A stretch of 64,000 nt of DNA, from positions 167,820 to 231,819 of the forward strand of contig MTMB02000001.1 in NCBI GenBank assembly GCA_002011085.2. The letters are read 5' to 3'. This stretch comes from Candidatus Geothermarchaeum rappei. GTDB lineage: Archaea > Thermoproteota > Nitrososphaeria > Geothermarchaeales > JDFR-13. The notes beneath the pieces are model-generated. The model was not told the DNA's origin. It made no database searches and worked only from the letters and a program-made list of their open reading frames with translations. The number at the start of each line of letters is the position of its first letter. Positions within the stretch are counted from its first letter, which is position 1. This document shows positions 2,604-52,738 of this stretch, in pieces. Made by a program: the position numbers and the translations under genes.

Positions 2604-2652
2604 AAAACTTTATAAAACACACAACATAAAAATAATTAAGAAAAAACCACAA

Positions 2653-3254: not shown

Positions 3255-3353
3255 ACCCTTCTTTCTATTTCACATAATTATGAACATAAACTCTGGTATT
3301 TTTAATAAATTTTCCTAGGTATTTATAATATTTAGATTGGGGGGATATTACCA

Positions 3354-23088: not shown

Positions 23089-23358
23089 ATGACGACTCTA
23101 AAGAAGATAATCCAGTCCTTCAGGGAATTCCTCTTCGGAGCCTTCTACATGGATCTATATAGAGACTCGGCTAGAATGGCTAGGGAGTATAAGGACTTCA
23201 TAAACCTCCTGCTCCTCGGCGAGTTCCTAGGCCTCCCCATTCTATCTACGAGCATAACCCTGAGGCTGATCCCATATCTATATGGGGATCTGGCTAATTG
23301 GAAGAGGCGACAGCTGGCTGAGAAAGACGTCACAGATGAGGTTCCTGACATAATGTGA
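23089..23358 (+). CDS. Small protein, paralog of 25423-25707 (Get3-neighbourhood family)
   Basis: 89-residue protein with an amphipathic/hydrophobic centre. It shares a clear pattern with the protein at 25423-25707: LGxxLGxPxxxxxxxLRLxPYxxxxxxxWKxRxxxExDxTD. Here the pattern is formed by LLGEFLGLPIL, LRLIPYLYGDLANWKRR and AEKDVTDEVP. The two copies flank the CstA carrier gene, and the second copy overlaps the Get3-like ATPase. The LRL-PY segment and central hydrophobic helix suggest a membrane-associated peptide, perhaps a partner of the carrier or oxidase. No known family recognised. Confidence 0.7.
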   Translation: MTTLKKIIQSFREFLFGAFYMDLYRDSARMAREYKDFINLLLLGEFLGLPILSTSITLRLIPYLYGDLANWKRRQLAEKDVTDEVPDIM

Positions 23359-25298: not shown

Positions 25299-25422
25299 AC
25301 CTTTTCCTCTTCTTTCTACAAATTTTTTATATTAATTTAACTCAATTAGACTTTAAGTAGTTAAATAAAATAATTTTATAAGTATAACAACCCATATTCT
25401 AAATCTTAGTTAGGTGTCTCCC

Positions 25423-25707
25423 ATGTTTAAAAGGAAGAAGGACAAGGATAAGGAGAATAAGAAGGCTAGTGGCGTCAAGGGAATATTATATGGCATGGCT
25501 CTACACGGTAGTGTAACGGCTTTCCTACGCACCAGGATGTATATGGAACATCTCTTCATGCTTATGACACTAGGCGACATGCTCGGCTTTCCAGTTATAC
25601 CTCCATACTACTCACTGCGTCTACTCCCATATGCGGTTCCAAACATAAAGTCTTGGAAGGCCCGTCTCTTTAGGGAGAGGGACTTTACAGACATGTTTAC
25701 AGGGTGA
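25423..25707 (+). CDS. Small protein, paralog of 23089-23358, coupled to Get3-like ATPase
   Basis: 94 residues. A very basic N-terminus (MFKRKKDKDKENKKA) is followed by a hydrophobic helical region (MYMEHLFMLMTLGDMLGFPV) and the shared C-terminal pattern (SLRLLPYAVPNIKSWKARLF then ERDFTDMF). It matches the small protein at 23089 over about 50 residues. Its stop overlaps the GTG start of the first Get3-like ATPase (GTGA), so the two are co-translated, implying a physical or functional link. Start ATG at 25423 with an AGGTG site; a GTG at 25414 is possible. Not a recognised family. Confidence 0.75.
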   Translation: MFKRKKDKDKENKKASGVKGILYGMALHGSVTAFLRTRMYMEHLFMLMTLGDMLGFPVIPPYYSLRLLPYAVPNIKSWKARLFRERDFTDMFTG

Positions 25708-26705
25708 TTAAACTGAAGGGGCTAAGTAAGTTTTTTGAGGAGCATCCTGATATTAAGGTCGTTATATTCGCTGGTAAAGGCGGCCTAGGTAAGACGACGT
25801 GCAGCGCTGCACTGGCATACCACGCGGCTGTGAATGAGGGTAGGAACGTCCTATGCTTCAGCACGGATCCACAGGCTTCTCTAAGCGATATCTTTGAACG
25901 AGACTTATTCGGGAAGGGAGTTGTTGAGGTTGCTCCAAACCTGAATGTAGTTGAGATCGATGCAGATAAGAGGATCGCGGAGTATCAGGAGGAGATTAGG
26001 AATAAGATTAAGGAGATGTATGGCATGGACGAGCTCCCGCCTGAGATCGATGAATACATCAGTTCCACCTCGGCGGAACCAGCTATGTATGAATCCGCTA
26101 CATATGATGCTATGGCGGAGCTCGTCGCCGAAGGCTCATATGACCTATATATCTTCGACATGCCGCCATTTGGACATGGAGTCCGTATGGTAGCTATGGC
26201 TGAAATACTCACGGCGTGGGTGGAGAAGCTGGCTGAGGCTAGGGAGGAGGCCCGGAAATATGAGGCTGTCGCGGCTACGCTGAGGGGATCCAAGGTTAGT
26301 GAGGATGAGATTCTCAAGGAGCTTATGCTGATTAGGGATAAGATGAAGGCGTTTACAGACCTCCTCGTGGATAGTAGGAAGACGGCGTTCTTCATGGTTC
26401 TAGTCCCTGAGTCCATGGCAATACTCGATACAGAGCGTGCACTCGAGATGTTTAATGACCTAGGGATAACATTGTCTGGAGTGGTTCTCAACAGGGTTTA
26501 TCCTAGGGAGCTTCTAGAGGACCCGAGTATCCCAGATTTCCTCAAGAATAAGATCAAGGGTCAGGATGAGTATCTAGAGGAGATCAAGGATAAGTTCGGC
26601 GACTACCTCGTTGCAGTTCTACCGACGTATGAAAGGGAGCCTAAGGGCCTTGAGATGCTTAAGCGGGTTGCCCACGACCTGATGTTCAGTAAGTTGACAA
26701 TATGA
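25704..26705 (+). CDS. Get3/ArsA-family ATPase, catalytically competent copy
   Basis: Deviant-Walker-A ATPase of the ArsA/Get3 (SIMIBI) class. P-loop AGKGGLGKTT at about residues 23-32. Switch I FSTDPQASLSDIF retains the catalytic aspartate (D55), and switch II FDMPPFGHGVRMV is present. It has a long helical insertion (about 170-230), where Get3 proteins bind hydrophobic client helices, and no metal CxxC. Family members target tail-anchored membrane proteins or drive ArsB. With no arsenic genes here and an oxidase operon downstream, a role in delivering small or tail-anchored membrane proteins is more plausible. GTG start within a GTGA overlap with the small protein gene. Confidence 0.88.
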   Translation: MIKLKGLSKFFEEHPDIKVVIFAGKGGLGKTTCSAALAYHAAVNEGRNVLCFSTDPQASLSDIFERDLFGKGVVEVAPNLNVVEIDADKRIAEYQEEIRNKIKEMYGMDELPPEIDEYISSTSAEPAMYESATYDAMAELVAEGSYDLYIFDMPPFGHGVRMVAMAEILTAWVEKLAEAREEARKYEAVAATLRGSKVSEDEILKELMLIRDKMKAFTDLLVDSRKTAFFMVLVPESMAILDTERALEMFNDLGITLSGVVLNRVYPRELLEDPSIPDFLKNKIKGQDEYLEEIKDKFGDYLVAVLPTYEREPKGLEMLKRVAHDLMFSKLTI

Positions 26706-26712
26706 GGTGGTT

Positions 26713-27738
26713 ATGATGGCTGGTTTAAAGAAGCTGTTTGAGGAGAAACCCAATTTAAGATTCATATTCACCGGGGGAAAGGGGGGAGTAGGAAAAACCA
26801 TATCTGCGGCTGGAATAGCGTATCACTATGCGTCGGATGGTAAGAAGACGTTGCTCGCATCTCTAAATCCAGTGCATTCACTTACAAGCCTGTTTAGACA
26901 GGATTTAACAGGCGGCTCGATAAAGAAGGTTGAGGGAACTGAAAATCTATATGCTATTGAGGTCGAGATCGACGACGTTGTCCAGAGATATAAGGAGAAC
27001 ATCGCGAAGCGTATTCGTGAGTTTATGAAGTGGGCTGATATACCAATCGATCCACAGCCGTTTGTGGATATTGCTACTACAAACCCTGCGTTCCAGGAAT
27101 CTGCTATGTTCGATAAGATGATGGATATTGTCTTGGAGGAGGGCCAGAACTTTGAGAAGATCGTTTTCGACACTGCAGCCGTCGCCAACGCAGTTAGGCT
27201 TATCGGATTGAGTAAGATATATGGCCTATGGCTCCAGAGGATGATTAAGAGTAGGGAGGAGGCGTTGTCGCTTAGGGTCAAGCTGTCATTTAGGAAGGAG
27301 AAGGTTATGGAGGAGATTAAGAAGGATCCGCTTATGGCCGACCTAATATCTCTCCACGAGAAGTTTACCAAGGTTAGGGGTATGCTTCTCAATAAGGATG
27401 AGACAGCCTTCTTCTTTGTCACGCTACCGTTGTCCCTACCCATCGCCGTGGTTAAGCGCTTCATCAAAATGGTGACGGCCTACGACATCCCTGTTGGGGG
27501 CGTTATAGTAAACCAGATAATTCCCAAGGCCGTAGTTGGTAAGACGACTAGCGAGTATGTCAAGAACCAGTATGAGCAGCAGCTACACTATATGAAGATC
27601 ATCCAGGATGATCTTGGTGACATTGTGGTCAGTTATATACCTACTTATGAGTCTGAGGTCGTCGGCGTAGACATGGTCAGGAAAGTTGCTGAGGACATGA
27701 TAAGCTATATCCCCGATTTTATGGATGAGCTTTCCTAG
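26713..27738 (+). CDS. Get3/ArsA-family ATPase paralog with degenerate switch I
   Basis: Second copy, same length and architecture as its upstream neighbour. The P-loop GGKGGVGKTI is intact, but switch I reads SLNPVHSLTSLF. The aspartate of the STDPAH motif, essential for hydrolysis in Get3, is Asn here. Switch II reads FDTAAVANAVRLI instead of DTAPTGHT. It probably binds but does not hydrolyse ATP, so a heterodimer with the competent copy is likely. ATG at 26713 or 26716, with GAGGTGG site, 7-10 nt after the previous stop. A hairpin follows its stop codon. Confidence 0.87.
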   Translation: MMAGLKKLFEEKPNLRFIFTGGKGGVGKTISAAGIAYHYASDGKKTLLASLNPVHSLTSLFRQDLTGGSIKKVEGTENLYAIEVEIDDVVQRYKENIAKRIREFMKWADIPIDPQPFVDIATTNPAFQESAMFDKMMDIVLEEGQNFEKIVFDTAAVANAVRLIGLSKIYGLWLQRMIKSREEALSLRVKLSFRKEKVMEEIKKDPLMADLISLHEKFTKVRGMLLNKDETAFFFVTLPLSLPIAVVKRFIKMVTAYDIPVGGVIVNQIIPKAVVGKTTSEYVKNQYEQQLHYMKIIQDDLGDIVVSYIPTYESEVVGVDMVRKVAEDMISYIPDFMDELS

Positions 27739-27828: not shown

Positions 27829-27873
27829 AATGTTTATACCATAGGTCTCGTTGATATATATCTGGGGATATTG

Positions 27874-28446
27874 ATGTATATACAGCAAGTCGTTGAGATG
27901 TTTTATCTCACGCTGGTAGCTATATACATTGTCTTTATCATCAGCTTTATCTACGTTACCTCAAGGGGGAAACCCTCTAAAATGGCTACGGACGGTGGGG
28001 AAGAAGAGCATAGGGGGATGGACAAGGCTGAGAAGACTTGGTTCGCGATCCTAATAACAATAGCCATTATCGGGAACGCCCTACTACTCTCTCCACTAAT
28101 CCCATCCGCCAATATGGCTCTCTGGACTAAGGCTGAGCCTATGCAGACATATACAATTACCATCGAGGACTATCAGTTCCACCTGCCTGAGAAGCCTATG
28201 AGGGTTGCTGCAGGCGTCCCAGTCGAGTTCGTCGTGTTATCCAACGATGTTACATATGGATTCGGAGTGTTTAGAGAAGATGGGAGTTTAGTCTTCCAAA
28301 TGCAGGTCGTCCCGGGATATGAGAATAAGATCGTCTGGATATTTGACGAGCCAGGGGTATACACCATACGCAGCACGGAGTACAGTGGTCCAGAGCACTC
28401 ATCAATGGTGGTTTATGACGCGATAGTGGTTGAGGAGGGTGGTTGA
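27874..28446 (+). CDS. Heme-copper oxidase/NO reductase subunit II without CuA ligands
   Basis: 190-residue membrane-anchored cupredoxin. It has an N-terminal TM helix (about 8-28), a second TM helix (about 56-73), then a soluble cupredoxin fold. The CuA loop position reads STEYSGPEHSSM: both cysteines of CxxxCGxxHxxM are serines (S167, S171), while the His and Met remain. The upstream ligand His is Tyr (DVTYGF). It therefore should not bind CuA, unlike cytochrome c oxidase subunit II. This fits a quinol-linked oxidase or an NO reductase. ATG at 27874, 1 nt gap to subunit I, same operon. Confidence 0.85.
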   Translation: MYIQQVVEMFYLTLVAIYIVFIISFIYVTSRGKPSKMATDGGEEEHRGMDKAEKTWFAILITIAIIGNALLLSPLIPSANMALWTKAEPMQTYTITIEDYQFHLPEKPMRVAAGVPVEFVVLSNDVTYGFGVFREDGSLVFQMQVVPGYENKIVWIFDEPGVYTIRSTEYSGPEHSSMVVYDAIVVEEGG

Positions 28447-28447
28447 G

Positions 28448-29980
28448 ATGGGTCCACGTGAGAAACTAGCTTTGAGATATGTGCTTACAGCCGTCTTCTG
28501 GCTGGGTGTAGCGGGTATTGAGGGCATGTTGATGCGGCTCAGGCTAATAGACCTCTTTACAGACATCTATGTACCAGAACACTTCTATAGCATGATGACG
28601 GTTCATCCCTATGTGGGGATATATGGATGGGCTTATATGGCGGTTATGGGTGCCTTCTACTATCTTGTTCCAAAGGTCTTGAATAAGGAGCTTTATAGTG
28701 AGAGGGTGGCTAACCTGAGCTATTGGGTGATGACACTAGGTGTATTAATCACCTGGTTATCAGGCTTCCTATTCAACTTCGCTGCATTATACACATTATA
28801 CTGGCCGCTGCCTGTTGAGAGGTTCCCACCGACATCCATACTCGTCTTCAGCATAGGAACCATCATGATATTCTCATCGGTACTAATGTTCTTCTTCAAC
28901 ATGTTCGCCACAATATTCCTACCATCTAGAGACGCTGGTGGAGCAGGATATGTGGCTAAGGAACTGCTTACACTGGCGTTCAACATCGACAAGATCAAGG
29001 CGGTTGGAAAGGGGATCAAGAACTATCTTCCGAAGGTATATGCATATCCAGTCTTTATAGTAGGTGTATTCAGAGGCTGTGTCGACACCACCCTTAACGC
29101 GTTGACCATGGCAGCCATATCAGTATTACTAGGAGTCTATTCACTAGCGGGCTTGGCGAACATAAACCTACCAGCCACCTTAGTTGATCCACTTATCTAC
29201 AAAAACGTGTTCTGGTGGGGTCTAGACCTGATTGCAGACGGTAATGTCCTGATATTCACAGCCGCGACATGGTATTTCCTTACACCAGTCCTAGTGGGTA
29301 GGAAGCTATATGGAGAGCAAGTCGTCAGGACAGTTATTCTCGCAGACCTAGTATTATCCCTATTCGTATGGAATCACCACATGCTGGCTGATACACCTCA
29401 GCCACTGATACTCCAGATACAGGGACAGATATTCACATGGGGAGAGCTTATAACAATGGGCCTTACAATGTTCGCAGTATTAATGACTATTTGGCTGGCT
29501 AGACCGGTTAAATATAGTACTCCGCTTAAGTTCATGATACTATCCATACTTGGATACGCTATTGGAGGGTCAGCTGGTATAATGCAGGCTAACTATGCAT
29601 TAAACAGGTATCTACACAATACACAGTGGGTCATAGGGATCCATGGGCATGTACAGCTACTGGCCGGCCTAAGCCTAACATTATTCGCGGTGATATATGC
29701 CGTTGCACCGATGATAACTGGTAAGGAGCTTGACCCCAAGCTTGCAGACATACACCTGATTCTATTCTTCGCCGGCGCGATTATAATGGGCCTATCCATG
29801 GGCCTAGCCGGTGTAGATGGGATGCTTAGGAGGACCCTCTACTTCAATGGGGAGTATCTCCCCTACATGCTCGGCGCTGCTGTGGGAGGGGCTATGATGG
29901 CCTTAGGCTTCCTAGTGTTCCTCCTCAATTTCGTGAGGACCTATGGGTTTAAGGCCATCATAATTGCTTTCAAAGACTGA
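28448..29980 (+). CDS. Heme-copper oxidoreductase subunit I, NO-reductase-like active site
   Basis: 510-residue catalytic subunit with about 12-13 TM helices. Visible ligands are H53 (TVHPYVG), H310-H311 (VWNHHML) and H399/H401 (GIHGHVQLL) for hemes and active-site metal. The segment that carries GHPEVY in oxidases reads WWGLDLIADG (256-265). It lines up best with the NorB pattern WWxVHLWVEG, with D260 in place of the metal-ligand His and D264 in place of the conserved Glu. No Tyr cross-link residue is at the oxidase position. It is therefore called a divergent NO reductase rather than an O2 reductase. Start ATG at 28448, just after the subunit II stop. The nos locus downstream supports the call. 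Confidence 0.82.
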   Translation: MGPREKLALRYVLTAVFWLGVAGIEGMLMRLRLIDLFTDIYVPEHFYSMMTVHPYVGIYGWAYMAVMGAFYYLVPKVLNKELYSERVANLSYWVMTLGVLITWLSGFLFNFAALYTLYWPLPVERFPPTSILVFSIGTIMIFSSVLMFFFNMFATIFLPSRDAGGAGYVAKELLTLAFNIDKIKAVGKGIKNYLPKVYAYPVFIVGVFRGCVDTTLNALTMAAISVLLGVYSLAGLANINLPATLVDPLIYKNVFWWGLDLIADGNVLIFTAATWYFLTPVLVGRKLYGEQVVRTVILADLVLSLFVWNHHMLADTPQPLILQIQGQIFTWGELITMGLTMFAVLMTIWLARPVKYSTPLKFMILSILGYAIGGSAGIMQANYALNRYLHNTQWVIGIHGHVQLLAGLSLTLFAVIYAVAPMITGKELDPKLADIHLILFFAGAIIMGLSMGLAGVDGMLRRTLYFNGEYLPYMLGAAVGGAMMALGFLVFLLNFVRTYGFKAIIIAFKD

Positions 29981-30030: not shown

Positions 30031-30047
30031 TCTAGATGGGTTTTATT

Positions 30048-30668
30048 ATGCGTGGGATGGATGAGCGTCTGATTGAGGTAACCCTTAAAATATACAATCC
30101 TGTATGTATACTAAGTCGAGAGCTAGGTAGTCTAGTTAAGATAGAAGATGTCCGTAGCTATGGAGATCGTGTTGCTCATTTAATAGAGCTGTCTCAGGAA
30201 AAGTTCGAGGAGGCTAAAAGACTGGCATCTGAGACAGAAGGCGTCTTGCAGGGTGTCAAGAGTAGGAAAGGTGTTACAACATGCTGGTTCCTGAGTAAGG
30301 GCTGCGATGCCTGCAGGCCAATTGCACTAGGCGAGGCTTTTTTAGTACGTGGAAAGCTTCTGGATGACGGCTCCATGGAATTTAGCTTCATTGTTCCGGG
30401 TGAGGATAGTTATATTAAAATATTAAGTGAGCTGAGGAACGCAGGTATAGTATTTGACATTGTACGTGTGTCTGGATTTAAAAGTAGTAGGCTTCTAACC
30501 CCTAATCAGGAGAAAACTCTATACATAGCTATGAGGATGGGTTTATTTGATCATCCGAGGAGGATTACGGTCCAGGAATTGGCGAATGTACTGGGTATCA
30601 AGCCAAGTACATTAACAGAGACCCTTAGAAGAGGCTTGAAGAGAATACTAAAACATTATTTCGGCTAG
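30048..30668 (+). CDS. HTH_10 (Bat-type) transcription regulator
   Basis: 206-residue regulator. The C-terminal HTH_10 domain is clear: LTPNQEKTLYIAMRMGLFDH then PRRITVQELANVLGIKPST and LRRGLKRIL. The N-terminal sensor half carries a cysteine cluster TTCWFLSKGCDACRPI. In halophilic archaea Bat-type proteins sense redox or light and control target operons. Here the cysteines and the location between NO- and N2O-reductase genes suggest sensing of redox state, metal or NO. It stands alone after the NOR-like operon with its own TATA box, convergent (2-bp gap) with a paralog. Alternative starts at 30036 and 30057. Confidence 0.82.
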   Translation: MRGMDERLIEVTLKIYNPVCILSRELGSLVKIEDVRSYGDRVAHLIELSQEKFEEAKRLASETEGVLQGVKSRKGVTTCWFLSKGCDACRPIALGEAFLVRGKLLDDGSMEFSFIVPGEDSYIKILSELRNAGIVFDIVRVSGFKSSRLLTPNQEKTLYIAMRMGLFDHPRRITVQELANVLGIKPSTLTETLRRGLKRILKHYFG

Positions 30669-30670
30669 CC

Positions 30671-31366
30671 TTACTTGTTAAACTTACTCTCCTCCTCTTT
30701 CTTTTTATAATATAATGTTACGACTTTCTTCATACTGGCTCTCAGCGCTTCAACGATTGTAGATGGTGACCTTTTAATTATCTTAGATAGCTCTTGTAAC
30801 GTGATCTTGCGCGGATAGTCAAAATATCCCAGTTTCAGAGCTAGCTTGAGGATCTTATCTTGATTGAACGTTAATTCAGTCGACTTACTATTCATCTTTA
30901 TCTCAGTTATACTCTCTACATTTATCTCTATCCCGTTTTTCTTCAATCTATCGATGATCTTCTCTAAAATAGCTGTATGAGCTATCAATCTCCACTTCAC
31001 ACGATTTCTCTCGATGTCATATACTGCGGAGCCTAAAAAACATTCGGATGAATCAGAGAATAATTTACATACATTGCAGTGGGATGTCTTAATGACCCCG
31101 TATAACAGGCCTTTACCCGAATCTGTGATGAATATCTCAGACTTATCAATATACTCAGAGTTCATTATCTTCTCCTTGATCATATTAAGGTCCTTGGGGT
31201 TACATTTTATCTCGAAAATTTCATTAACCTTGTCTTTTCCCACAGGTTTACAATCCAGTATCTCAACTCTAACAGAATAGTCAGATATCAAGTCCATGAC
31301 CCAGCTGTGAGGCGGGGGACGTATCTCTAGGGTGACTTCTCTAAACTCTGAGCCATTGTTCTTCAT
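30671..31366 (-). CDS. HTH_10 (Bat-type) regulator, last gene of the nos operon
   Basis: 231-residue paralog of its convergent neighbour. HTH_10 segment LTFNQDKILKLALKLGYFDY, PRKITLQELSKIIKRSPST. The N-terminal half contains HCNVCKLFSDSSECF (CxxC-x8-C). Its ATG directly abuts the nosY stop (TAGATG), so it is co-transcribed with nosZLDFY and is the prime candidate for the nos regulator. The long basic tail (YYKKKEEESKFNK) is unusual. Targets are unknown, but the 26-bp palindrome at 37721 is the obvious site to test. Confidence 0.82.
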   Translation of the reverse strand: MKNNGSEFREVTLEIRPPPHSWVMDLISDYSVRVEILDCKPVGKDKVNEIFEIKCNPKDLNMIKEKIMNSEYIDKSEIFITDSGKGLLYGVIKTSHCNVCKLFSDSSECFLGSAVYDIERNRVKWRLIAHTAILEKIIDRLKKNGIEINVESITEIKMNSKSTELTFNQDKILKLALKLGYFDYPRKITLQELSKIIKRSPSTIVEALRASMKKVVTLYYKKKEEESKFNK

Positions 31367-32200
31367 CTATATCTTATCACCCCTCTTAAATAGTAAATAT
31401 GCCGTGGTTAGCGATATGAATACATATGTTATCATTATGCTTGTTAACACTATAGGCAGGTAAATACCCAGCGTTCTAGCAGTATATATGCCTGATGGGC
31501 CTAGGAACACGAGAGCCGGGTCTATACTATATATCATCATTATCCTAGATGTCTCCACAGGATTTAGGACTGCGATGAAGAAGACGATCTGCTCCTTCAG
31601 ATTCATTGCAATAGCTAGTCCCATAACGATCATATCATATATGAAGATCATAGTAAACCATGTAAAAAAGGTAAGGCCAAGTGCCTCAAGCCTACTCTTA
31701 GTTACTACAGATATCAGTAGCCCGATGCCGACTGATGTAGAGGATAGTAGTACCGCTATCACTATAAAATAGAGATACTTCGAGATATCCTCAGGAGGTA
31801 ATATTGATGTTATGAGCCAGCTTGCTAGTCCGAAGCCTAGGAGTGTGGCGATTGAGATGGCCGAGACGAGTCCTATGAATTTTCCCAATATATATTCCAA
31901 TACGCCAATAGGTTCCGAGAATATCCACTCGGTTATACCTGACTCTTTCTCCCCCACTATACTGATACTGCTAAGCATCAATGATATTAGTGGGATTAGG
32001 TAGAGTGAGAGGTTTATCAATGTAGCTGTTATTCTCCCTACAGCTTTCAGCCCCAAATAACTTATCCCCATTAGCGAGAACTGCGATAGTGTTAGGCCCA
32101 GTATAAAATATAGAAGGCTATATACTACCAGCCATCTGCTTTTGAGAGCCTGTTTCAACTCCATAGTCATTAGTTCCTTGATTATTCTTAATCTATTCAT
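31367..32200 (-). CDS. nosY: ABC transporter permease NosY
   Basis: 277-residue membrane protein with six TM segments, the permease half of the NosFY transporter needed for N2O reductase copper-site assembly. The N-terminus RIIKELMTMELKQALKSRW and the loop SISIVGEKESGITEWIFSEPIG are typical of NosY/ABC-2 permeases. The start at 32200 overlaps the nosF stop (ATGAATAG); an ATG at 32215 is possible. Followed directly by the HTH_10 regulator. Confidence 0.88.
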   Translation of the reverse strand: MNRLRIIKELMTMELKQALKSRWLVVYSLLYFILGLTLSQFSLMGISYLGLKAVGRITATLINLSLYLIPLISLMLSSISIVGEKESGITEWIFSEPIGVLEYILGKFIGLVSAISIATLLGFGLASWLITSILPPEDISKYLYFIVIAVLLSSTSVGIGLLISVVTKSRLEALGLTFFTWFTMIFIYDMIVMGLAIAMNLKEQIVFFIAVLNPVETSRIMMIYSIDPALVFLGPSGIYTARTLGIYLPIVLTSIMITYVFISLTTAYLLFKRGDKI

Positions 32201-33074
32201 GATCGTTATCACCATGTAGATAGCCTATCAACTCGTCTAATGAGGGCTCCTCAACATATATTGATCCAATGTCAACATGTTTTCGGATGAGTTCTCCAAT
32301 GGTCTCTACGATATTATGGGTTTCCACAAGCAGCCACTGGTTGTTATGGGTAATAATTCTACCCGACTTTAGCTGGAGTCTGTCGATACTGGTATTAAGC
32401 CTGAGGTAGAATCTCATGCTCCTAAGCCTATCCACCAATCTTTCTAGTGGGCCGAAGTATAGCTGTCTCCCTTCACTCAACATAAGTATTTTATCTATAT
32501 ACAGTAGGATATCTACTATCTTATGCGAGCTAATTAGAATTGTCTTTTCTCTTTTTCTAAGCTCATTTAGAAGCCTTAAGAAAATCTTCCTGCCCTCAAA
32601 ATCCAGGTTTGCCAAGGGTTCGTCGAATATCAATATCTCAGGGTCATGAGCGATAGCTACACATAGGGCTAGTCTCTGTCTCATTCCACCGGAGTATTCC
32701 CCGACTGGTACGTCCACGACATCACCTAGGCCGAAGGAGGAAATGAGTTCCTCTTCATTAATTTCTATCTCATGTAGCTTATCATGTAAGTTTAATATCT
32801 CTCTTGCCGTCATATTTCTTGGAAAATTTATTGATTGAGGTACATATCCAATTAGCCTCTTAACCCTCTTAATATCCTTGGTTATATCTATGTTTCCAAG
32901 GGTTATTCTCCCACTAAACCTTAATAGACCGAGAATGCATCTTAACAATGTCGTTTTTCCAGATCCATTTGGACCCAGTATTAGTAGTACATCGTTTCTA
33001 TCTATTTTAAAGCTTATATTCTCCAAGGCGGTGAATTCGTCATACTTTTTTACAAGGTTCTCGACTCTTATCAT
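32193..33074 (-). CDS. nosF: ABC transporter ATP-binding protein NosF
   Basis: ATPase half of NosFY. Walker A LGPNGSGKTTLLR, Q-loop GYVPQS, signature YSGGMRQRLALC, Walker B ILIFDEPLANLD, switch His in ISSHKI. The C-terminal 90 residues form the usual accessory domain. The ATG at 33074 overlaps the nosD stop (ATGA); an ATG at 33083 would add three residues. The complex is thought to supply a sulfur species or otherwise energise CuZ assembly together with NosD. Confidence 0.92.
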   Translation of the reverse strand: MIRVENLVKKYDEFTALENISFKIDRNDVLLILGPNGSGKTTLLRCILGLLRFSGRITLGNIDITKDIKRVKRLIGYVPQSINFPRNMTAREILNLHDKLHEIEINEEELISSFGLGDVVDVPVGEYSGGMRQRLALCVAIAHDPEILIFDEPLANLDFEGRKIFLRLLNELRKREKTILISSHKIVDILLYIDKILMLSEGRQLYFGPLERLVDRLRSMRFYLRLNTSIDRLQLKSGRIITHNNQWLLVETHNIVETIGELIRKHVDIGSIYVEEPSLDELIGYLHGDNDHE

Positions 33075-34507
33075 CTCACCCATCTCCTCCTCAGATACAT
33101 AATCAGTGACAATGGTATTATAGTCAATATAAAGGAAGTCATGACCCCAACTGGATTTATAATTATCCTACCACCCAGCATTTGTGTAGGGTGTATCAAT
33201 GGATAGAGGTCTATGGCCTTTTTCCTAGGGTTAATTAAAATAACCTTCTTCATATTCTCGAGGACTAGATAGCCCGGGCTGTATAGGAATATCCTTAACT
33301 GTCTATATCCATCCATCAAATCCTCCAATATATCTTGGGATATATAGGGTACGTCCCCCACCCCGTCTCCATCCATATCTCTATAATGGTATTCGCTCCA
33401 GAAATTTCCCCTTGCCTTCTCCATGTTGAACCATATAGTGTCTCCTATATCCACTCCAATCAGGCTAACATCCATTATATTTTCAATAATATTATTCTCA
33501 TATATCTCAGCTGCGGATTCCGAGTCTATTCTTATACCTATGTAGTTAAATGCTATGGTATTGCCCTTGATTACCGCTTTCTTACCTGGTGTAAAAGGAG
33601 TCTTCCTAAGGTTTATCCCAACGATATTCCCTATTATAGAGTTATTCTCTATCCATATATCATCACATTCCGGTATGAAGACAGCCTCCCCAATACCTCC
33701 TTTTCTTAGAAGTAGAATGGTGTTGTCCGACGCCCTTATCCCCTTGCTATACATTAATACTAGACCTGCTATAGAATCAGTTATATAACTTTTCTCTATT
33801 GTTATATTTTCACAATACATTAGATGGACTCCGTATCTGGCTTCCTCCACCACATTATTGATTATATAAGCATTATACACATGGTCATTGTAGGATGCGT
33901 CCTGCACATCTCTAAATTCATTATTTATTATATACAAGTATCTAGTGTACCATGAATAGATGCCGTGTCCTCTATCCGCAACATAATAGTCAGGTATACT
34001 TGTAATGATGTTATCAGTAATCCATATATTATATGAGTCCTTTGGGAGTATGGCGTAGAATACATTGTAAAACTCATTCTCCTGGATGTATACATTGGAT
34101 GATTTTATTATCTTTATACCGGAATCCTCGGTACTGTAGGATCTGCCTGAGTTTATTATCTTGAATCCCCTGACGACCACGTCTGTAGCTTCTTGGATCG
34201 TTATTATTGTCTTATTCCCTCTGCCGTCAAGGATAGGTGTATTAATTCCTATGAGGGATATCGATTTATTTATTATCATCAGATGCTCGTAATAAACTCC
34301 TCCCTCTATATATATAGTGTCTCCAGACCTAGCATCCTCAATTGCCTCTGAGATACTGCTATACCGGTTCTCCCGTGTATTTATATAAATTATGTTTTCT
34401 AAAGATCTATTATCGGCTACGACGATACTCCCTGTAATGAGAGTTGAAAAACCTAGGGTTATCAGAGTTAGATATATCAGGAGACAAGTAATTAGTCTAT
34501 TCCGCAT
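33071..34507 (-). CDS. nosD: NosD, periplasmic beta-helix N2O reductase maturation factor
   Basis: 478-residue exported right-handed beta-helix. It begins with a signal peptide (about 1-31). The pectate-lyase-like repeats are easily seen as recurring xxNxI/IxxN strands (SNVYIQENEF, YNIWITDNII, LYIINNEFRD, DDIWIENNSI). The NosD-typical segment NFWSEYHYRDMDGDGVGDVPY is intact. A C-terminal TM helix (about 455-472) anchors it. It is required for CuZ cluster assembly in known systems. Coupled to nosF and to the upstream membrane gene. Confidence 0.93.
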   Translation of the reverse strand: MRNRLITCLLIYLTLITLGFSTLITGSIVVADNRSLENIIYINTRENRYSSISEAIEDARSGDTIYIEGGVYYEHLMIINKSISLIGINTPILDGRGNKTIITIQEATDVVVRGFKIINSGRSYSTEDSGIKIIKSSNVYIQENEFYNVFYAILPKDSYNIWITDNIITSIPDYYVADRGHGIYSWYTRYLYIINNEFRDVQDASYNDHVYNAYIINNVVEEARYGVHLMYCENITIEKSYITDSIAGLVLMYSKGIRASDNTILLLRKGGIGEAVFIPECDDIWIENNSIIGNIVGINLRKTPFTPGKKAVIKGNTIAFNYIGIRIDSESAAEIYENNIIENIMDVSLIGVDIGDTIWFNMEKARGNFWSEYHYRDMDGDGVGDVPYISQDILEDLMDGYRQLRIFLYSPGYLVLENMKKVILINPRKKAIDLYPLIHPTQMLGGRIIINPVGVMTSFILTIIPLSLIMYLRRRWVR

Positions 34508-35045
34508 ATCTTTTCACTAAAAGGGCTAGGATGAGGGGAATAACCATCAGCCAAAATCCTATGTCGAAGTAGGTTGTCGTCTTAAAGTTTGCAATCTGAT
34601 AGCTCCCCATAACCAGGGGGGTGAAAGGCTCTATGTCTATAGCTGCTTCACTACTGATATTATGACCATAATTATATAACCAGTACTGGAAATATGCCGG
34701 TAGGCTAAGCAGGATGATGAGGTAGATAATTATCAATAGCCTCCTGTTCATGTTAGTGAAGAGCATTAAGGCTAGTAACACCGAACTTATAATAAATGCA
34801 ATAGGTAGTAGTTTTACCTCGATCATATTTTGAGGCTCTATAGGTGAAAGCCCTACGTAGTGATTGGCTATGTTGATCTGATCAAGAGGACCCGTAACTC
34901 CACCAGTTCCCCATACAGATACCTTAAGCCATTTCTGTCCAAACATTGGAGCATTGAAGTTTAAAGTCCAAAAAGGTAGGGCTATCCCAATTACAGGGAG
35001 AATAACAATTAATATTTTGAATAGCTTTATTTTATCCAAAGACAT
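34497..35045 (-). CDS. nos-cluster membrane protein (conserved, unnamed)
   Basis: 182-residue membrane protein with four predicted TM helices. It has an extracytoplasmic loop after TM1 containing NIANHYVGLSPIEPQNMIEV. To my recollection a similar loop (NHYIGMKxI) occurs in a small membrane protein found between nosL and nosD in other, mainly bacterial, nos clusters. The role is unproven; metal or sulfur trafficking for NosZ maturation has been a reasonable guess. It overlaps nosD by 11 nt and follows nosL by 6 nt. Confidence 0.75.
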   Translation of the reverse strand: MSLDKIKLFKILIVILPVIGIALPFWTLNFNAPMFGQKWLKVSVWGTGGVTGPLDQINIANHYVGLSPIEPQNMIEVKLLPIAFIISSVLLALMLFTNMNRRLLIIIYLIILLSLPAYFQYWLYNYGHNISSEAAIDIEPFTPLVMGSYQIANFKTTTYFDIGFWLMVIPLILALLVKRYAE

Positions 35046-35051
35046 TTAACC

Positions 35052-35561
35052 TCACCCCATTTGCATAGGCATAACAGGATGCTCTCTAAACCAGTTTAGA
35101 ATCTCTTCATATACAAATAACCTACCATTATTCTTAAGAGAGAACTTCTCCGCTAAATTCTTATCTTTAAATGCCGCTATACCTGTTCCCATTGGAGTCT
35201 TGAAATCATGGGGATCTACCAATACATAATATGCTTCTTCAGCAGGGACCCAACTCCCGTCATAATAGTCTCTAACATAAACGTATTTTATGTTACCCGA
35301 CTCCTCTGATAGTAGTGATGTCAGCATACATCCGATGTCGTCGAATTTCATCCATTCTTCTTCTCCAACGCTGTAGTATGCTGCTGAAAACTCTTTTATA
35401 CTGATAACCATTCCACAAAACCTGCATTTATCTGCACCATAATATATCTCGGGGGTACGCCGATTATCGCTACCAAATAAGGTAAAATTGACTGTTAGTA
35501 AAGCCATTATCAATAAGATTATGGATATAAATAAGGGGAGGAGGAGATTTTTTCTATTCAT
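35052..35561 (-). CDS. nosL: NosL, copper-chaperone-like protein
   Basis: 169-residue Cu(I)-binding accessory factor for N2O reductase. The core motif YYGADKCRFCGMVIS carries the CxxCGM copper site. The middle matches NosL (EWMKFDDIGCMLTSLL, VLVDPHDFKTPMGTGIAAF). Instead of a lipoprotein box the N-terminus is a plain TM anchor (about 8-28). The C-terminus HPVMPMQMG is Met/His-rich and could add copper ligands. Lies 20 nt after nosZ, same operon. Confidence 0.93.
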   Translation of the reverse strand: MNRKNLLLPLFISIILLIMALLTVNFTLFGSDNRRTPEIYYGADKCRFCGMVISIKEFSAAYYSVGEEEWMKFDDIGCMLTSLLSEESGNIKYVYVRDYYDGSWVPAEEAYYVLVDPHDFKTPMGTGIAAFKDKNLAEKFSLKNNGRLFVYEEILNWFREHPVMPMQMG

Positions 35562-35581
35562 ATTCCCACTAATTCACTCGT

Positions 35582-37690
35582 TTACTGTGGTTCTACAACA
35601 AACCACCCCGCCATCTCTAGATGGAGGGGAGAGCAAAATTCCGTACAATACATCGCGTATACCCCGGGCTTATCGGCGAGTATCTCAACTGTCGCTACCT
35701 CCCCCGGTTCCAGGCTAAGGTTTATATTGTATTCACATATTGTGAATCCGTGGGTAGCGTCAGGCGTAGTCTCGATATTTGTCAAGTGAAAGATAACCTT
35801 ATCACCTTGTTTAACTCGAATGAAGTCCGGGGTTATTCGGCTCCTTATAAGCGTTCCCCATATTTCAGTCACAGGCTGGCCATTAACCACCTTCCTCTCT
35901 ATCCTCTCTTCACCCTTACTAACTGCATTTGGATCCTTCTGGAATGTTAATGGGTTTGTGCCCATAGGGTAAACCTCTATTGGATTAAGCTTATCTGCAC
36001 TGATAATCCTTGCATAATGTGGTTCGCCTAGACCGATGGGCATATCGTAGAGTAGCATCATCTTGGAGCTTGTTATATCTATAAGCTGTAGGTTCTGTGG
36101 CTTCAGTGGACCGACTGAGTTAAACCTATCTATAGACCATTTGTTGAGGGATACTAGGTACTTGCCTTTTGGCTTAGGAGTATTGCTCTCTGGAGCTGCA
36201 ACGTGACCTACATTGTAATGTATATCTATTTTATCTACCACTTTCCACGCTTCATCCCCCGTGTGATATGGTGGTCCTAAAGCCCACTTAGCTACTTTAT
36301 TATCTATGAATAGGCTTGTGTATGCATATCCTTTGTCATCGAATTCTGTGTGTAGAGGACCGAGCCCTACTTCCACCTGAGCTTCCTTGGTACTCTCAAA
36401 CTTTAATATAGGTATGCCATATTCGTCTGTCCCCTCAAAATCTTTATTTTTTATTGCGGTAAGTATCTTCTCCACACTATAGACGGTGGCTACAGGCTCT
36501 AGTTTACCGCTTACAACGATATACTCCCCACCAGGTGTTATGTCACATCCATGGGGGCTCTTAGGCTCAGGTATCAGATATATAATTCCCTCTTTGATTG
36601 CTGTATCAAGGGAAATTACCTTTACTCCATTAAGCTCCTTATACTTACCCTGTTTAACTAGTTCCTCAGCTTTTTTCCAGAATATCACATGTAGATAATC
36701 GAAATCTCTTTCAGAAGCCCCAACCTCGAGAGGAGGTATCCCATTTAAGTCGTCTCCAACAGCCATCTCTGTATTAAATGAGTTTATGAAGCATAGTCCA
36801 TCAGAGGGCCCCCATCCAATCGCAACCAAGTCCTGCATATATGGTGGTAGCTCTATCTCAAAGCTTTTTGAAAGGTCTATCCTACCAACCTCCCTGTTGA
36901 AAGCGAGGAATGCCACTAATCCTCTAAAGTTATTCTTATATGTATCTGGGTTCTGGGGATCAAGTTCGACATATGTCTCACCAGGCCGGTATCCAGTCTC
37001 AGGATCCCATGGCGCTGGATATTGAGAACCCACTACCACATATTCGGTATTGGGTGTACAAAAACACCCTCCGTGTTGCGACTGCATATTAGGAATCTTC
37101 ACTATCTGCTTTGTCTCAAAATCTTTTAGACTTATTACCGCCATCCTTCCGTTGGCCTTGTCGTTTACAAAGAGCCATTCTCCATCGAACTCAGCGTTAG
37201 TCCTACTTATCTCAGGATGATGCACATCCCCCCATGTGAGGTTACGTATCCCATTACTTCCTTCCTTTAAAATCTTCTCTGTCTCCAAGTTTCCAACCCC
37301 ATATCCCTGCCAAGGCTCTGGGGTAAACACGGCGATAACCTTATACAACTTCATAGAGGGTATGCCAATCACTAGAACCTGTCCAGAATGTCCTCCGGAG
37401 GCGAACATAATGAACTCGTCTCGAGCCCCACCAGGGACATAAGTCTTGACCGCCGCTACAGCCTGATCCGGCGTGAGATTCTTCTCCTGAATTATATTCT
37501 GTAGGTTTCCGGGGGCGATCTCCACCTCACTTGGTGCACTTGGGGCTAGGAATTTGCTGACTCCATAGCCTGCTACAACACCTGCTGCAACCCCTCCAGC
37601 GATTTGTAGGAAGTCCCTTCTCCTCAATCCATTGCCATTATTACGAGAATTAGAATTGGATGACTTTCTAGCTGTCAAGAAAATCCCCAA
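35582..37690 (-). CDS. nosZ: Nitrous oxide reductase NosZ (Tat-exported)
   Basis: Terminal reductase N2O to N2. The N-terminal LRRRDFLQIAGG is a Tat signal. The seven-bladed propeller supplies CuZ histidines recognisable in GGHSGQ, DVHHPE, SPHGCD, LHTEFD, NVGHVAAPE and EPHYAR. The C-terminal cupredoxin holds CuA (ATHGFTICEYNI upstream, then CTEFCSPLHLEM with C682, C686, H690, M693). 702 aa is full length with all visible ligands intact. First gene of nosZ-L-membrane-D-F-Y-regulator. A TATA-like ATTTTTATCC and a 26-bp palindrome lie just upstream. Confidence 0.96.
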   Translation of the reverse strand: MGIFLTARKSSNSNSRNNGNGLRRRDFLQIAGGVAAGVVAGYGVSKFLAPSAPSEVEIAPGNLQNIIQEKNLTPDQAVAAVKTYVPGGARDEFIMFASGGHSGQVLVIGIPSMKLYKVIAVFTPEPWQGYGVGNLETEKILKEGSNGIRNLTWGDVHHPEISRTNAEFDGEWLFVNDKANGRMAVISLKDFETKQIVKIPNMQSQHGGCFCTPNTEYVVVGSQYPAPWDPETGYRPGETYVELDPQNPDTYKNNFRGLVAFLAFNREVGRIDLSKSFEIELPPYMQDLVAIGWGPSDGLCFINSFNTEMAVGDDLNGIPPLEVGASERDFDYLHVIFWKKAEELVKQGKYKELNGVKVISLDTAIKEGIIYLIPEPKSPHGCDITPGGEYIVVSGKLEPVATVYSVEKILTAIKNKDFEGTDEYGIPILKFESTKEAQVEVGLGPLHTEFDDKGYAYTSLFIDNKVAKWALGPPYHTGDEAWKVVDKIDIHYNVGHVAAPESNTPKPKGKYLVSLNKWSIDRFNSVGPLKPQNLQLIDITSSKMMLLYDMPIGLGEPHYARIISADKLNPIEVYPMGTNPLTFQKDPNAVSKGEERIERKVVNGQPVTEIWGTLIRSRITPDFIRVKQGDKVIFHLTNIETTPDATHGFTICEYNINLSLEPGEVATVEILADKPGVYAMYCTEFCSPLHLEMAGWFVVEPQ

Positions 37691-37771: not shown

Positions 37772-37795
37772 AGGTATTAGGAGGTGTTTCCTTTA

Positions 37796-38296
37796 GTGAC
37801 TAACTATAAGTCGGGTAGAAAAGGCTTTTACCGACGGGTGTTCTTCACTATTATTGTATTAATCTCCGCGATACTAGTGTCCAAAACCGTCTCCATATAT
37901 GGCCAGAGTGCTGGATCATCTCCGACTGAAAGATATATAGAGCTACATGCTAGGCAATGGGCTTTTGAGCCGAATGTCATAGAGGTTAACCAGGGGGATA
38001 CCGTCATAATAAACCTTGTGTCCGACGATGTATCACATGGTTTCTATTTGGAGGGCTATAATTTGGAGGCCAAGGTGGTTCTCGAAGAAGGTGCCCCCAA
38101 TAGTGCAACGGTGGAGTTCGTCGCAGACAAACCAGGCGTATACACATTTAGATGTACAGTAAACTGTGGACCGTTTCACCCATTTATGACAGGTAAGCTG
38201 GTTGTTAATCCACCTACACCATTTTATGGAGGGATGAGTCTTAGCGTTATCGCCTTGGCGGTGTTCGTAATAGTCTTCTTTATCTGGAGATGGTGA
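37796..38296 (+). CDS. CuA-type cupredoxin with N- and C-terminal membrane segments
   Basis: 166-residue membrane-bound electron carrier. A basic N-terminus and TM/signal (about 15-33) precede a cupredoxin domain with a complete CuA set: H81 (DVSHGF) and C120, C124, H128, M131 (FRCTVNCGPFHPFM). A C-terminal TM helix (about 146-164) ends in RW. Probable electron donor to NosZ or acceptor from the adjacent polyferredoxin. The AGGAGG site overlaps a GTG at 37784, so the GTG at 37796 is the better start. First gene of a three-gene plus-strand operon. Confidence 0.85.
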   Translation: MTNYKSGRKGFYRRVFFTIIVLISAILVSKTVSIYGQSAGSSPTERYIELHARQWAFEPNVIEVNQGDTVIINLVSDDVSHGFYLEGYNLEAKVVLEEGAPNSATVEFVADKPGVYTFRCTVNCGPFHPFMTGKLVVNPPTPFYGGMSLSVIALAVFVIVFFIWRW

Positions 38297-38299
38297 GCT

Positions 38300-39772
38300 A
38301 TGGCTAGATTCAAATATGATCTATTAAAAATACCTCTCCTCAAGAAAATCGTCATGTCCCGTTCATTCCAGTTTATAGTGATCTTCCCGAACTTTGTCGT
38401 ATTCATAGTGCTACTCGCCAGTGCATTTGTCGGGTCACCAGTTGGAAACCATAACCTTGCTGTGCTTGTGGTATGGATACTTTGGTGGGCGGCTTTAATG
38501 CTGGTGCTGACTCCTCTTGGAGGCAGGCTATGGTGTATGATATGCCCTATGCCGGCTATAGGCGAGTGGCTTCAGAGGAAGACTTTCACTAGAAAGAATG
38601 ATAAGCAGCTAGGTCTACAGAGGAATTGGCCTAAGAAGCTTGACAATATATGGCTGCAGAACTTTGCATTCCTAATTGTCTCAACATTTATAGGTGTATT
38701 GACAACTAGGCCTTGGGCTACTGGTATAATGCTTGTTCTCCTGGTAATCATTCTCCCCACTCTATTCTTCCTCCTATTCAAGAGGAGGGTCTGGTGTAGA
38801 TACATATGCCCTGTCTCTGGATTCATAGGTCTATACTCCATGGTGGCTCCTATAGAGCTGAGAGTTAAGGATAGAGAAGTCTGTCTAAAACACGCCGGCA
38901 AGGAATGCTATAGAGGTGGACCTAATGCATATGGCTGCCCTTGGTATGAATTTCCCCAGAATCTAAACCGTAACGCATACTGTGGCCTATGCATGGAGTG
39001 TGTAAAGGCTTGTCCACTTGACAACATTGCCCTTAACATCAGGATCGGGGGAGACGACTTATATGTGGAGCCTTGGCATGGTCTGAAAAAGAAGGGTCTC
39101 GATGAGCCGTTCAAGGCCTTTATAATGAGTACACTGGCCATAATATACGCATACATATTTACAGGTCCGTATCCATGGCTGAAGGATGTGGCGAACATAT
39201 TTAATGGAGAGACATTCAGTAAGAATTTCATCGACAATATACTTATGGAGACACTGATACCCGATAGGCTTCTTACCTTCGGTGGCATCGTATGGTTTTC
39301 AACACTGGTTCTAATGCCGACTATCTTCGCGTTATTCACATTATTATCAAAGGCCCTAGCAGGATGGAGAGATACACAGTCATTTAAAAAGATGTTCATC
39401 AACTATTCGTACATGCTAGTCCCCTTAAGCCTAACTGCATGGATGGCTTTCGCTATCTACATCCTACTTATAAACGGCACATATATCTTGGCCGCAGTTT
39501 CAGACCCATTCAACTATGGATGGGATTTGCTAGGGACCAAACATATTCCATGGACGCCAATCGCTACAGGGATCTTACCTTATATCCAAGGAGGCATCAT
39601 ATTACTGGGCTTGATCTGGACTATAAACACCATTAAAAACATCTCTAAACATATGTTCGACACTAGATCAAGGGCTTTGAGAGCATCTCTACCAATGGTA
39701 ATCCTCGCTCTCCTCTACACCTTCCTAGTATTAAATATATGGCTTGGTCCAGGGGTGGTTCCAAGTGGCTAA
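38300..39772 (+). CDS. NosR/NapH-like membrane iron-sulfur protein
   Basis: 490-residue membrane protein. It has TM helices around two CxxxCP motifs (LWCMICPMP, WCRYICPVSG), one 4Fe-4S ferredoxin-type motif (YCGLCMECVKACP) and further cysteines in the loop CLKHAGKECYRGG. These match the C-terminal (NapH/CcoG-like) half of NosR, but no periplasmic FMN-binding domain is present. A long C-terminal membrane part (four or more TMs) extends it. It should pass electrons from quinol or cytoplasm to the CuA proteins on either side. 3 nt after the first cupredoxin, overlapping the second. Confidence 0.85.
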   Translation: MARFKYDLLKIPLLKKIVMSRSFQFIVIFPNFVVFIVLLASAFVGSPVGNHNLAVLVVWILWWAALMLVLTPLGGRLWCMICPMPAIGEWLQRKTFTRKNDKQLGLQRNWPKKLDNIWLQNFAFLIVSTFIGVLTTRPWATGIMLVLLVIILPTLFFLLFKRRVWCRYICPVSGFIGLYSMVAPIELRVKDREVCLKHAGKECYRGGPNAYGCPWYEFPQNLNRNAYCGLCMECVKACPLDNIALNIRIGGDDLYVEPWHGLKKKGLDEPFKAFIMSTLAIIYAYIFTGPYPWLKDVANIFNGETFSKNFIDNILMETLIPDRLLTFGGIVWFSTLVLMPTIFALFTLLSKALAGWRDTQSFKKMFINYSYMLVPLSLTAWMAFAIYILLINGTYILAAVSDPFNYGWDLLGTKHIPWTPIATGILPYIQGGIILLGLIWTINTIKNISKHMFDTRSRALRASLPMVILALLYTFLVLNIWLGPGVVPSG

Positions 39773-40205
39773 AAGGACAAGTAGAAAATCAAGAGGAATC
39801 GTTATAACCGATCTCATAGCATTAGTGCTTGTAATCCTCACATTTGTAGGGGTATTCTTCGTAGTATATCAGCATCAATCAACACAGGAGGCTTTGGCCA
39901 AAGAGGGCGTAGTGATTCATATAGAGGCTAAGCAATGGGCCTTCTCACCCGACGAGATCGTGGTTAAGAAGGGGCAGAAAGTGACCCTTGTAATCACCAG
40001 CCGTGACGTGACCCATGGATTCATGTTAAGTGCATTTGATATAAATGAGGTTATAAATCCTGGTTCGGAGGTCATCGTAACCTTTATACCCGATAAAACA
40101 GGTACATTCGAGTTCAGATGCTCAGTATACTGTGGTGAGCCATGGCCAGGGTCTGGAATGGGGCACTGGGTTATGAGAGGATATCTCAAGGTTATAGAGG
40201 GTTAG
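39765..40205 (+). CDS. Second CuA-type cupredoxin, N-terminally anchored
   Basis: 146-residue protein with one TM helix (about 13-35) and a cupredoxin domain. CuA ligands are present: H84 (DVTHGF), C119, C123, H134, M137. The loop reads FRCSVYCGEPWPGSGMGHWVM, so six extra residues separate the second Cys from the His compared with the usual CxxxCGxxHxxM. The GTG at 39765 overlaps the end of the NosR/NapH-like gene and has a GGGGTGG site. It probably serves as an alternate or serial electron carrier to NosZ. A second CuA donor beside the first is uncommon. Confidence 0.83.
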   Translation: MAKRTSRKSRGIVITDLIALVLVILTFVGVFFVVYQHQSTQEALAKEGVVIHIEAKQWAFSPDEIVVKKGQKVTLVITSRDVTHGFMLSAFDINEVINPGSEVIVTFIPDKTGTFEFRCSVYCGEPWPGSGMGHWVMRGYLKVIEG

Positions 40206-50218: not shown

Positions 50219-52738
50219 TCATTCTTTATTCTCTTCAATGACCTCAATCTTTCCCTGTATTAATGCCTCCTTTATAATGTTTTCATATTCGGTTATAGTC
50301 ACATGGCCTTTGTCCGTAATAATTGAAACTTCAATATCACACTGTTCAAATCTACTTTTAAGGAAATTGACCAATCTTGCTATTGTAGATATTTGTCCCA
50401 CAGGCACCTTTAATTTTAGTTTTAGTTTAGAGTACTTCTCAACTATGTACTCCTTTTCAATAATATCTCTCGTCTCTTTTTGAATAGGCTCTTTCCATTC
50501 TATTTCTTCAGAGAGCCCTTCTTCTCGAGGTTTAATACAAAATTCTGGTTTTACTATAATCTCACCATCAGTCAGATAAACTTCGGTATGCTCATTGATG
50601 GATCTGCATTCAACTTTCCCGTCTTTGACTGATCCCAGTCCAAACAATCCACTTTTGACACCTTCTTTGATACTTTGTTTAACCACATTTTCTGATAATA
50701 CTCGCAACTCGCCTGGTGTTTTTGAGAGTGCTTCATAAAGCTTTTTAGTCTCAATATAATCATTATCGGCTAGGTATTTTTCCTTGATTACCAGTGGAGA
50801 TAGACTCTCAAGTAACTCACCTTCAGTTCTTAGAATGTCATATACCTCTCTATCTAAATATCTTTCTCCAAATATGGGAAGACCCATGTCTAGCTTTTTT
50901 AGACCCTCCCTAATTGGTACATATATCTTCCTGTATAGTTTTCTCAGCTCTTCATGTTCTCTCCGAACATACATTTTGATCTTATTGGCGACCTCATTCC
51001 TCTGACTTAATGTTAGTCTTAAATCTTGTTTATCTATCTGTTTTAAGGCGATTAGCTTCCTTAAGAAAGAAAGAAAGTTCTCTCTGTAGTTTTCATCTCC
51101 ACATAGAAATATCAACGTATTTCTATATACTCTAGGAATTTCACCGTGTTTTTCGATAAATTCAAGGTCTGGCTCATCTTTATTCATTATTATAAGTTTC
51201 AGGTCTGGGGTATCAGGGATGTCTCTAGAGAACTTAGGATGAATATAGACTTTCAATCTTGGAGAACTAGACACATGTTTCCTTAGAATCTCCAATTCTG
51301 TTTCATATAGCTTATCCTCTGTGACACTTTCTTCCAGTATAAGGATCATTCTATTTATATTAGGCTGATTTGTGAAGTAAAGCCCTTCGTCTGATAGATA
51401 AAACAATTTTTCTCTGAGTTCTGTTATCACAGAATCTATAATTGTACTCGAAAATTCAGGATATACTGTGCTCAACTTGATGTCCCTAACACTACTACCT
51501 CTTTCTCCACGACCAGAGAAAGACATCATAAATATAGTTGTGCTCACAACAGTACCAAGATTGTATGGTCTATATGAGCTCTTAAGTCCTCTGTCTACTT
51601 TTTTTGCACCGGAGTCTGGAGAAGTAATATCTTGAGCAATTATACTATCCCACTCCTGTCCAATATGTTTAATCAACTCTCTCTTGATTTCATCGTTGCC
51701 TAAGTCGAAATCACCTAGTCTAATAAAAGGTACATTTTTATTCAAAAGACTATACACGACTAATGATAAAAGCCTTAATACTCCACGGGTTCTTTGAAAT
51801 GAGGGAAAAGAGCCCCATCTTTTATATAAAATATCGATTACCTCGGGCTTGAATGGATAACTTCTAAGAAACCTCTCTCTATAAATATTAATCTCTTCTT
51901 CAGTTATCAAACCTTCGTCCCGTGCATACTCAATAAAATCATTTACTACTTTTTTCATCTCTTTCTCATCGACTTTGCTGAAAAGCCTGTGTCTCACGAC
52001 ATGCTCGATCTCATCATCTTCAACTGGCGTATATATCTTCTCCATCCTTCCAAGCACTTTTTGTAATTGATGAAACATCTTTTCAGCGTTCTCATCATAA
52101 TGCTCAAGTACACTGGAAGGAAGTGTTACTACTAAAAAACTATTGTCTAAAAGAGATACCGCGGCTGTAAGCTCCTGTATAAAGGCTAGTGTCTGAGCAG
52201 CCAGGTTTGAGTCACCAACTTTTATACCCGCCGCCTTTGTTGCATATGCAAGAACCTCATCGATTAATATTAAGAGTGGAGAGTTTTCAGAGATTAGCTT
52301 GACTAAAACTTCTTTTCCAGGAGGGATATCACCTTTAGTTACTTCGACCTTTCCAGTAAGCTGTCTTTCAAGCTCTTCCCAAGGTTTTACTTGCTTTGGA
52401 TTCACAGCTAATCCATCAAATGCAAATACTTTCGCGCCCCATTCCCTAGCCTTGTGATATAATGCAATGAGGGCATGTGTTTTACCTCCTCCGAAGGGTG
52501 TTTGTAGCTGGACTATGGGATCTCCTCCTTTACCTTTTAACCTAGCCTCTGCTACCTCAAGTATGTTTTTCAATCCTTTAGTGAGATATGTTTTTTTAAA
52601 GAATATCTCAGGATCTTGATAATCTATCGGAGCCACTCCTTCAATAACTTGCCATAGATCAGCAGCGAAAACATCCATTGTAAGCCTTCCTTCCAACACA
52701 TCCTCATGCGGAGTAGCTACCTGTATGAATGGTTTCAT
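50219..52738 (-). CDS. DUF499 AAA+-like ATPase, defence-island component
   Basis: 839-residue protein of DUF499 (COG1483). N-terminal [20 protein letters not shown] is a hallmark, then Walker [19 protein letters not shown] (about 79-96), Walker [13 protein letters not shown] and a sensor-like FLVVTLPSS. The C-terminal half is helical, ending in a small DNA- or protein-binding-like domain. DUF499 ATPases travel with DUF1156 methylases and SNF2 helicases in archaeal and bacterial defence islands. ATGA overlap with the upstream methylase gene makes this a three-gene operon. Last gene of that operon. Confidence 0.9.

Follow-up and report, generated by a model that had tools for sequence, protein, structure and literature searches.

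A gNOR-type NO reductase with an Asp-modified active site predicted in the archaeon Candidatus Geothermarchaeum rappei

The gene pair and its surroundings

We analysed a 64,000-nt stretch of contig MTMB02000001.1 of Candidatus Geothermarchaeum rappei (forward strand, 167,820 to 231,819), referred to here as the window. Two adjacent genes on the plus strand are predicted to encode a two-subunit enzyme of the heme-copper superfamily. The first, at 27877..28446, encodes a norH-like subunit II with a COX2-type cupredoxin domain, and its start codon is uncertain (27871-27877). The gene for the norG-like catalytic subunit I (510 aa, 28448..29980) begins directly 3' of the subunit II stop, with an ATG at 28448 and an open frame. 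Its product matched the Pfam COX1 family over residues 6-483 (E=3.5e-68). Structural modelling, proposed as a check when the gene was first read, yielded a confident heme-copper fold, modelled without cofactors (AlphaFold, pLDDT 89.3, pTM 0.90).

Directly downstream of subunit I lies an HTH_10 (bat-type) gene with a Cys motif (30036..30668, plus strand), which is a candidate regulator. A second HTH_10 regulator (30671..31366, minus strand) sits at the 3' end of a run of nos genes. The two regulator genes are convergent, tail to tail across 30036-31366, and each product has a Cys-rich segment holding C-x2-C; both regulators, placed as they are between gNOR and nos, are candidate redox or NO sensors. 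Ten archaeal gNOR loci hold a relative of the first regulator (with weak scores in two), and in several of these it lies directly downstream of gNOR.

The nos run itself (31367..37690, minus strand) encodes a NosY-like permease, a NosF-like ATPase, NosD, a small membrane protein, NosL, and NosZ, with nosZ at 35582-37690 and its product scoring 803 bits against TIGR04246. The initial, sequence-only reading had put a nos locus 2 kb from subunit I. It was right about the closeness but not about the distance, as the NosY-like gene (31367) begins 1.4 kb downstream and nosZ 5.6 kb downstream. Beyond the nos run, genes at 37784..40205 (plus strand) encode a cupredoxin, a NapH-like 4Fe-4S membrane protein, and a second cupredoxin, which probably pass electrons to NosZ.

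A tandem pair of ArsA/Get3-type ATPase genes lies directly upstream of the gNOR pair (25704-27738, plus strand). We rejected it as a part of the system, as among the fetched loci it occurs only in the window and in the nearest relative (L046). Further upstream, two short proteins of 89 and 97 aa that are alike by eye (23089-23358 and 25414-25707, plus strand) flank a CstA-type transporter gene, and the second has no Pfam match. A three-gene helicase-methylase-ATPase defence system occupies 50219-58724 on the minus strand, with matches to PADLOC HmaC, HmaB, and HmaA (E 1e-116 to 1e-199), and SduA-like and LmuB-like genes come next (59284-62808).

Active-site residues

Residues W256-G265 of subunit I read WWGLDLIADG, preceded by F (FWWGLDLIADG), and the codons for D260-G265 (DLIADG) fall at 29225..29242 on the plus strand (28448+3*259=29225). 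The sequence-only reading had matched this segment to the NorB pattern, pairing D260 with the His and D264 with the conserved Glu. Our alignment agrees: the counterparts in cNOR and qNOR are WWVVHLWVEA, WYVVHLWVEG, and WWLVHLWVEG, with D260 at the position of the CuB/FeB His ligand and D264 at that of the NOR Glu or oxidase Tyr. When all families were aligned together, each of the 37 rows outside gNOR (A, B, C, eNOR, cNOR, and qNOR) carried a His in the D260 column. H53, H310/H311, and H399/H401 had been described as intact and were indeed present. An alternative ligand near D260, which had been raised as an objection, was sought among residues 246-275, and this segment contained no His.

Both Asp residues are strongly conserved. 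Across the window sequence and 80 homologs, reaching down to ~41% identity, D260, D264, W256, W257, G258, and G265 were invariant (81/81), as were W308, H310, H311, D315, E333, H399, H401, R461, and R462, while H53 was present in all 80 sequences covering that position. D260 and D264 were also retained in seven archaeal relatives of the same family (71-90% identical, one partial). Because both residues are invariant in all 81 sequences, the Asp at the ligand position is neither a chance change nor a sequencing error.

Family assignment and distribution

We placed subunit I in a tree (IQ-TREE, 61 rows, 474 columns) with 24 gNOR rows and reference rows of A, B, and C oxidases, eNOR, cNOR, and qNOR drawn from plasmids and genomes; B-type searches for sNOR, bNOR, and nNOR sequences yielded none. 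All gNOR rows formed one clade with 100/100 support, which contained the window sequence, next to Geothermarchaeota, together with the Sulfurimonas and Sulfurovum rows. The A, eNOR, C, cNOR, and qNOR rows each formed one clade, and gNOR stood apart from these and from B, without a firm link to the A or B families.

These results fit published descriptions of gNOR. The active-site residue listed for gNOR is D in Sulfurimonas, Sulfurovum, and Persephonella (PMC8756737 Table A4), whereas that of sNOR/CuANOR is Asn (PMC8756737), which does not match D264. One sentence in PMC3475470 states that in certain NOR types Asp takes the place of one CuB/FeB His and credits papers from 2008, among them that on the Sulfurimonas denitrificans genome; the sentence itself does not name gNOR. 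In Ca. Methylomirabilis, gNOR has been described as a quinone-oxidising norGH pair (PMC8906906; PMC6094997), and a 2024 account treats gNOR as a proposed NO reductase that is not biochemically characterised (PMC11388526). The first reading had pointed to an alternative, acid-liganded NOR family without naming it. The clade shared with Sulfurimonas and Sulfurovum and the Asp listed for them identify that family as gNOR, and the tree that it had called for sets the protein outside every O2-reducing family. Judged by its sequence, 28448-29980 encodes an archaeal gNOR, whose Asp-modified site is real but already known in bacteria. Both gNOR as a family and its His-to-Asp change are thus already published, and what is new is the archaeal member.

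The family is spread across archaea and bacteria. When 398 Thermoproteota genomes were searched with a profile, gNOR turned up in 14 of them, from six families; scanning 84,980 species genomes gave 396 encoding places, 80 of which were retrieved for comparison. Archaeal hosts among these 80 were Geothermarchaeota/Scotarchaeum, Caldarchaeales (Pelearchaeum, Calditenuaceae, and Geocrenenecus), and other Thermoproteota. Campylobacterota were numerous (Sulfurimonas, Sulfurovum, Nitratiruptor, and Aliarcobacter), and the other bacterial hosts were Chloroflexi (Anaerolineae and others), one Omnitrophota, one Myxococcales, and one Bacteroidetes MAG. Searches of plasmids returned other heme-copper families only, with no gNOR.

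Subunit II and the electron donor

Subunit II of the window lacks the CuA ligands (TYGFG, STEYSG). The pairing of the two subunits is common in the family, with the subunit II gene adjoining that of subunit I upstream in 77 of 80 loci, and 77 of the 78 aligned subunit II sequences have Tyr, Ser, and Ser at three of the CuA ligand positions. In subunit I, E25 was present in 80/80 sequences and H45 in 59/80; their counterparts in E. coli bo3, D75 and H98, are quinol-site residues. E25 and H45 align with the acid (Asp) and His of a bo3-type row (L166) and of the aa3-600 menaquinol oxidase (6kob), and this acid/His pair is absent from most other aligned rows. The acid/His pair at quinol-site positions, together with a subunit II without CuA, suggests quinol as the electron donor.

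The sole exception among the 78 subunit II sequences comes from a Thermofilaceae archaeon (L048, JALURH010000216.1), on a contig that is thinly covered (~2x). Its subunit I (2289-3824) is 75% identical to that of the window, and its subunit II, an ORF ending just before 2289, has a complete CuA set (H/C/C/H/M, in THGFG and CTEYCGFRHSEM). Subunit I of L048 retains both E25 and H45 and sits in the tree within the CuA-less archaeal clade, among neighbours with Y/S/S. Because it is nested among CuA-less archaeal members, a regain of CuA would be the simplest reading, but the coverage of the contig is thin. If true, L048 would have a cupredoxin- or cytochrome-fed gNOR. We consider donor plasticity within the gNOR family, with CuA regained in L048, tentative and rather doubtful.

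Association with NosZ and possible roles

Subunit I is the only COX1-family (heme-copper) gene found in the single-contig host genome. Among the 398 Thermoproteota genomes, NosZ was encoded in 5 of the 14 gNOR genomes compared with 4 of 384 others (Fisher p=2.9e-6, not corrected for relatedness), leaving nine genomes with gNOR alone, four with NosZ alone, and 380 with neither. The genomes with both come from four families. We considered a conserved gNOR-nos operon and rejected it, as none of the other loci had nosZ within 9 kb of gNOR, and the two genes were ~41-737 kb apart in three genomes (G004, G007, and G003); among the loci compared, adjacency of gNOR and nos was seen in this genome only.

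Rather than taking part in respiration, gNOR could serve to detoxify NO that neighbours release or that forms abiotically. This reading differs from our preferred explanation in role but not in reaction, and we regard it as a serious possibility though the less probable one. We found no convincing NirK, NirS, or NarG in the host genome (NarG matches scored ~25 bits or less), and no internal NO source is visible from this search of a genome that is 89.5% complete. NosZ was present in 18 of the 50 gNOR genomes of the species scan and missing from 32, including all 13 Chloroflexi checked. However, the lack of a nitrite or nitrate reductase is read from a genome only ~90% complete, and the nearby NosZ and the statistical association with NosZ suggest respiratory use of N2O. 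Several bacterial MAGs have gNOR as the sole full-length heme-copper gene found and lack NosZ, namely G436, G438, and G445 (Chloroflexi) and G437 (Omnitrophota), with loci L070, L076, L082, and L073. In those MAGs, the pattern suggests that gNOR serves NO detoxification.

Two further alternatives concern the reaction itself, and we consider both improbable. The Asp-modified centre might act on another substrate (for example, in NO dismutation or on hydroxylamine), as the ligand set is unusual and we found no enzyme assay or other biochemical data for any gNOR in the literature searched. Against this, putative NO dismutases have been described in Ca. Methylomirabilis as enzymes of their own alongside gNOR (PMC6094997), the Sulfurimonas hosts are denitrifiers (PMC4584964), and gNOR is linked to NosZ in Thermoproteota. 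An oxygen reductase whose CuB site is altered, and which the archaeon would use to respire or scavenge O2, would agree with the model's best PDB matches (heme-copper oxidases at TM ~0.8, A-type closest), with family HMMs (NCBIfam) that match oxidases only, though all under cut-offs, and with a host that would have no other such oxidase, but we reject it on the tree, which separates the protein from A, B, and C oxidases with 100/100 support, and on the active-site motif, where D264 replaces the oxidase Tyr and D260 the CuB His in all homologs; several gNOR hosts also carry separate cbb3 or A-type oxidases. The pair in the window is likely a two-subunit NO reductase of the heme-copper superfamily, of the gNOR type and probably quinol-oxidising.

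An archaeal gNOR also bears on a published gap in denitrification. Caldarchaeales MAGs, including 'Ca. Pelearchaeum maunauluense', were reported to have nirK and nosZ but not a NO reductase, and abiotic NO reduction by iron was suggested instead (PMC10547907). We found a gNOR 64% identical to that of the window in Ca. Pelearchaeum maunauluense MAG 146_bin.21 (L052, JANVYQ010000009.1, 9001-10560) and NosZ in the same genome (G510). This predicted gNOR fills the 'missing NO reductase' step of one related hot-spring archaeon, and since the MAG carries it, the NO-to-N2 route in these thermophilic archaea would require no abiotic step. Standard annotation names the gene an oxidase or misses it, so archaeal NO reduction may be under-counted.

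Proposed mechanism

Archaeal gNOR would form N2O from NO (2 NO + 2 e- + 2 H+ -> N2O + H2O). H53 and H401 would ligate the low-spin heme, and H399 would be the ligand of the active-site heme. H310, H311, and D260 would hold the non-heme metal in a 2-His-1-carboxylate set, a better fit for iron than for copper. D264, a helical turn past D260 and at the position of the FeB-binding Glu of cNOR, could be a further ligand or a proton relay. Since subunit II has no CuA, electrons would probably come from a quinol bound near E25/H45, and the N2O would then pass to the host's own NosZ. Such a 2-His-1-Asp centre may offer a natural test of what a NO-reducing metal site needs.

Comparison with known systems

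The closest known systems are the bacterial gNOR enzymes (NorGH) of Sulfurimonas, Sulfurovum, Persephonella, and Ca. Methylomirabilis. Shared features are the 100/100 clade, in which the Sulfurimonas and Sulfurovum sequences fall, Asp at both the His-ligand and the Glu/Tyr positions, and a paired, CuA-less subunit II encoded directly upstream. The window enzyme differs in its archaeal host, in being only ~41-45% identical to the campylobacterial enzymes, and in its gene neighbours, which are an HTH_10 regulator and, as a peculiarity of this genome, nos genes.

With cNOR and qNOR (NorB), the window enzyme shares the heme-copper fold and an acidic side chain where D264 stands, which in NorB is Glu. 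However, the H-L-x-V-E motif is replaced, with WWGLDLIADG in place of WWxxHLWVEx, so that two His and an Asp stand where NorB has three His to FeB. The clade is different, and both the cytochrome c subunit and the fused quinol domain are absent here. eNOR is likewise an alternative NOR of the same superfamily but forms a separate clade, and it retains the ligand His and has an active-site Gln (four Chloroflexi sequences read HPAQQ or HGAQQ), neither of which is found in the window sequence.

The bo3 and aa3-600 quinol oxidases resemble the window enzyme in carrying, at their quinol-site positions, an acidic residue and a His that correspond to E25 and H45, and in a subunit II without CuA. In contrast, they are A-type O2 reductases with three CuB His and a Tyr. 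The hallmarks of the A, B, and C oxidases (three CuB His, a cross-linked Tyr, and a place in one of their clades) are absent from the window enzyme, which shares its ligand pattern and its clade with bacterial gNOR.
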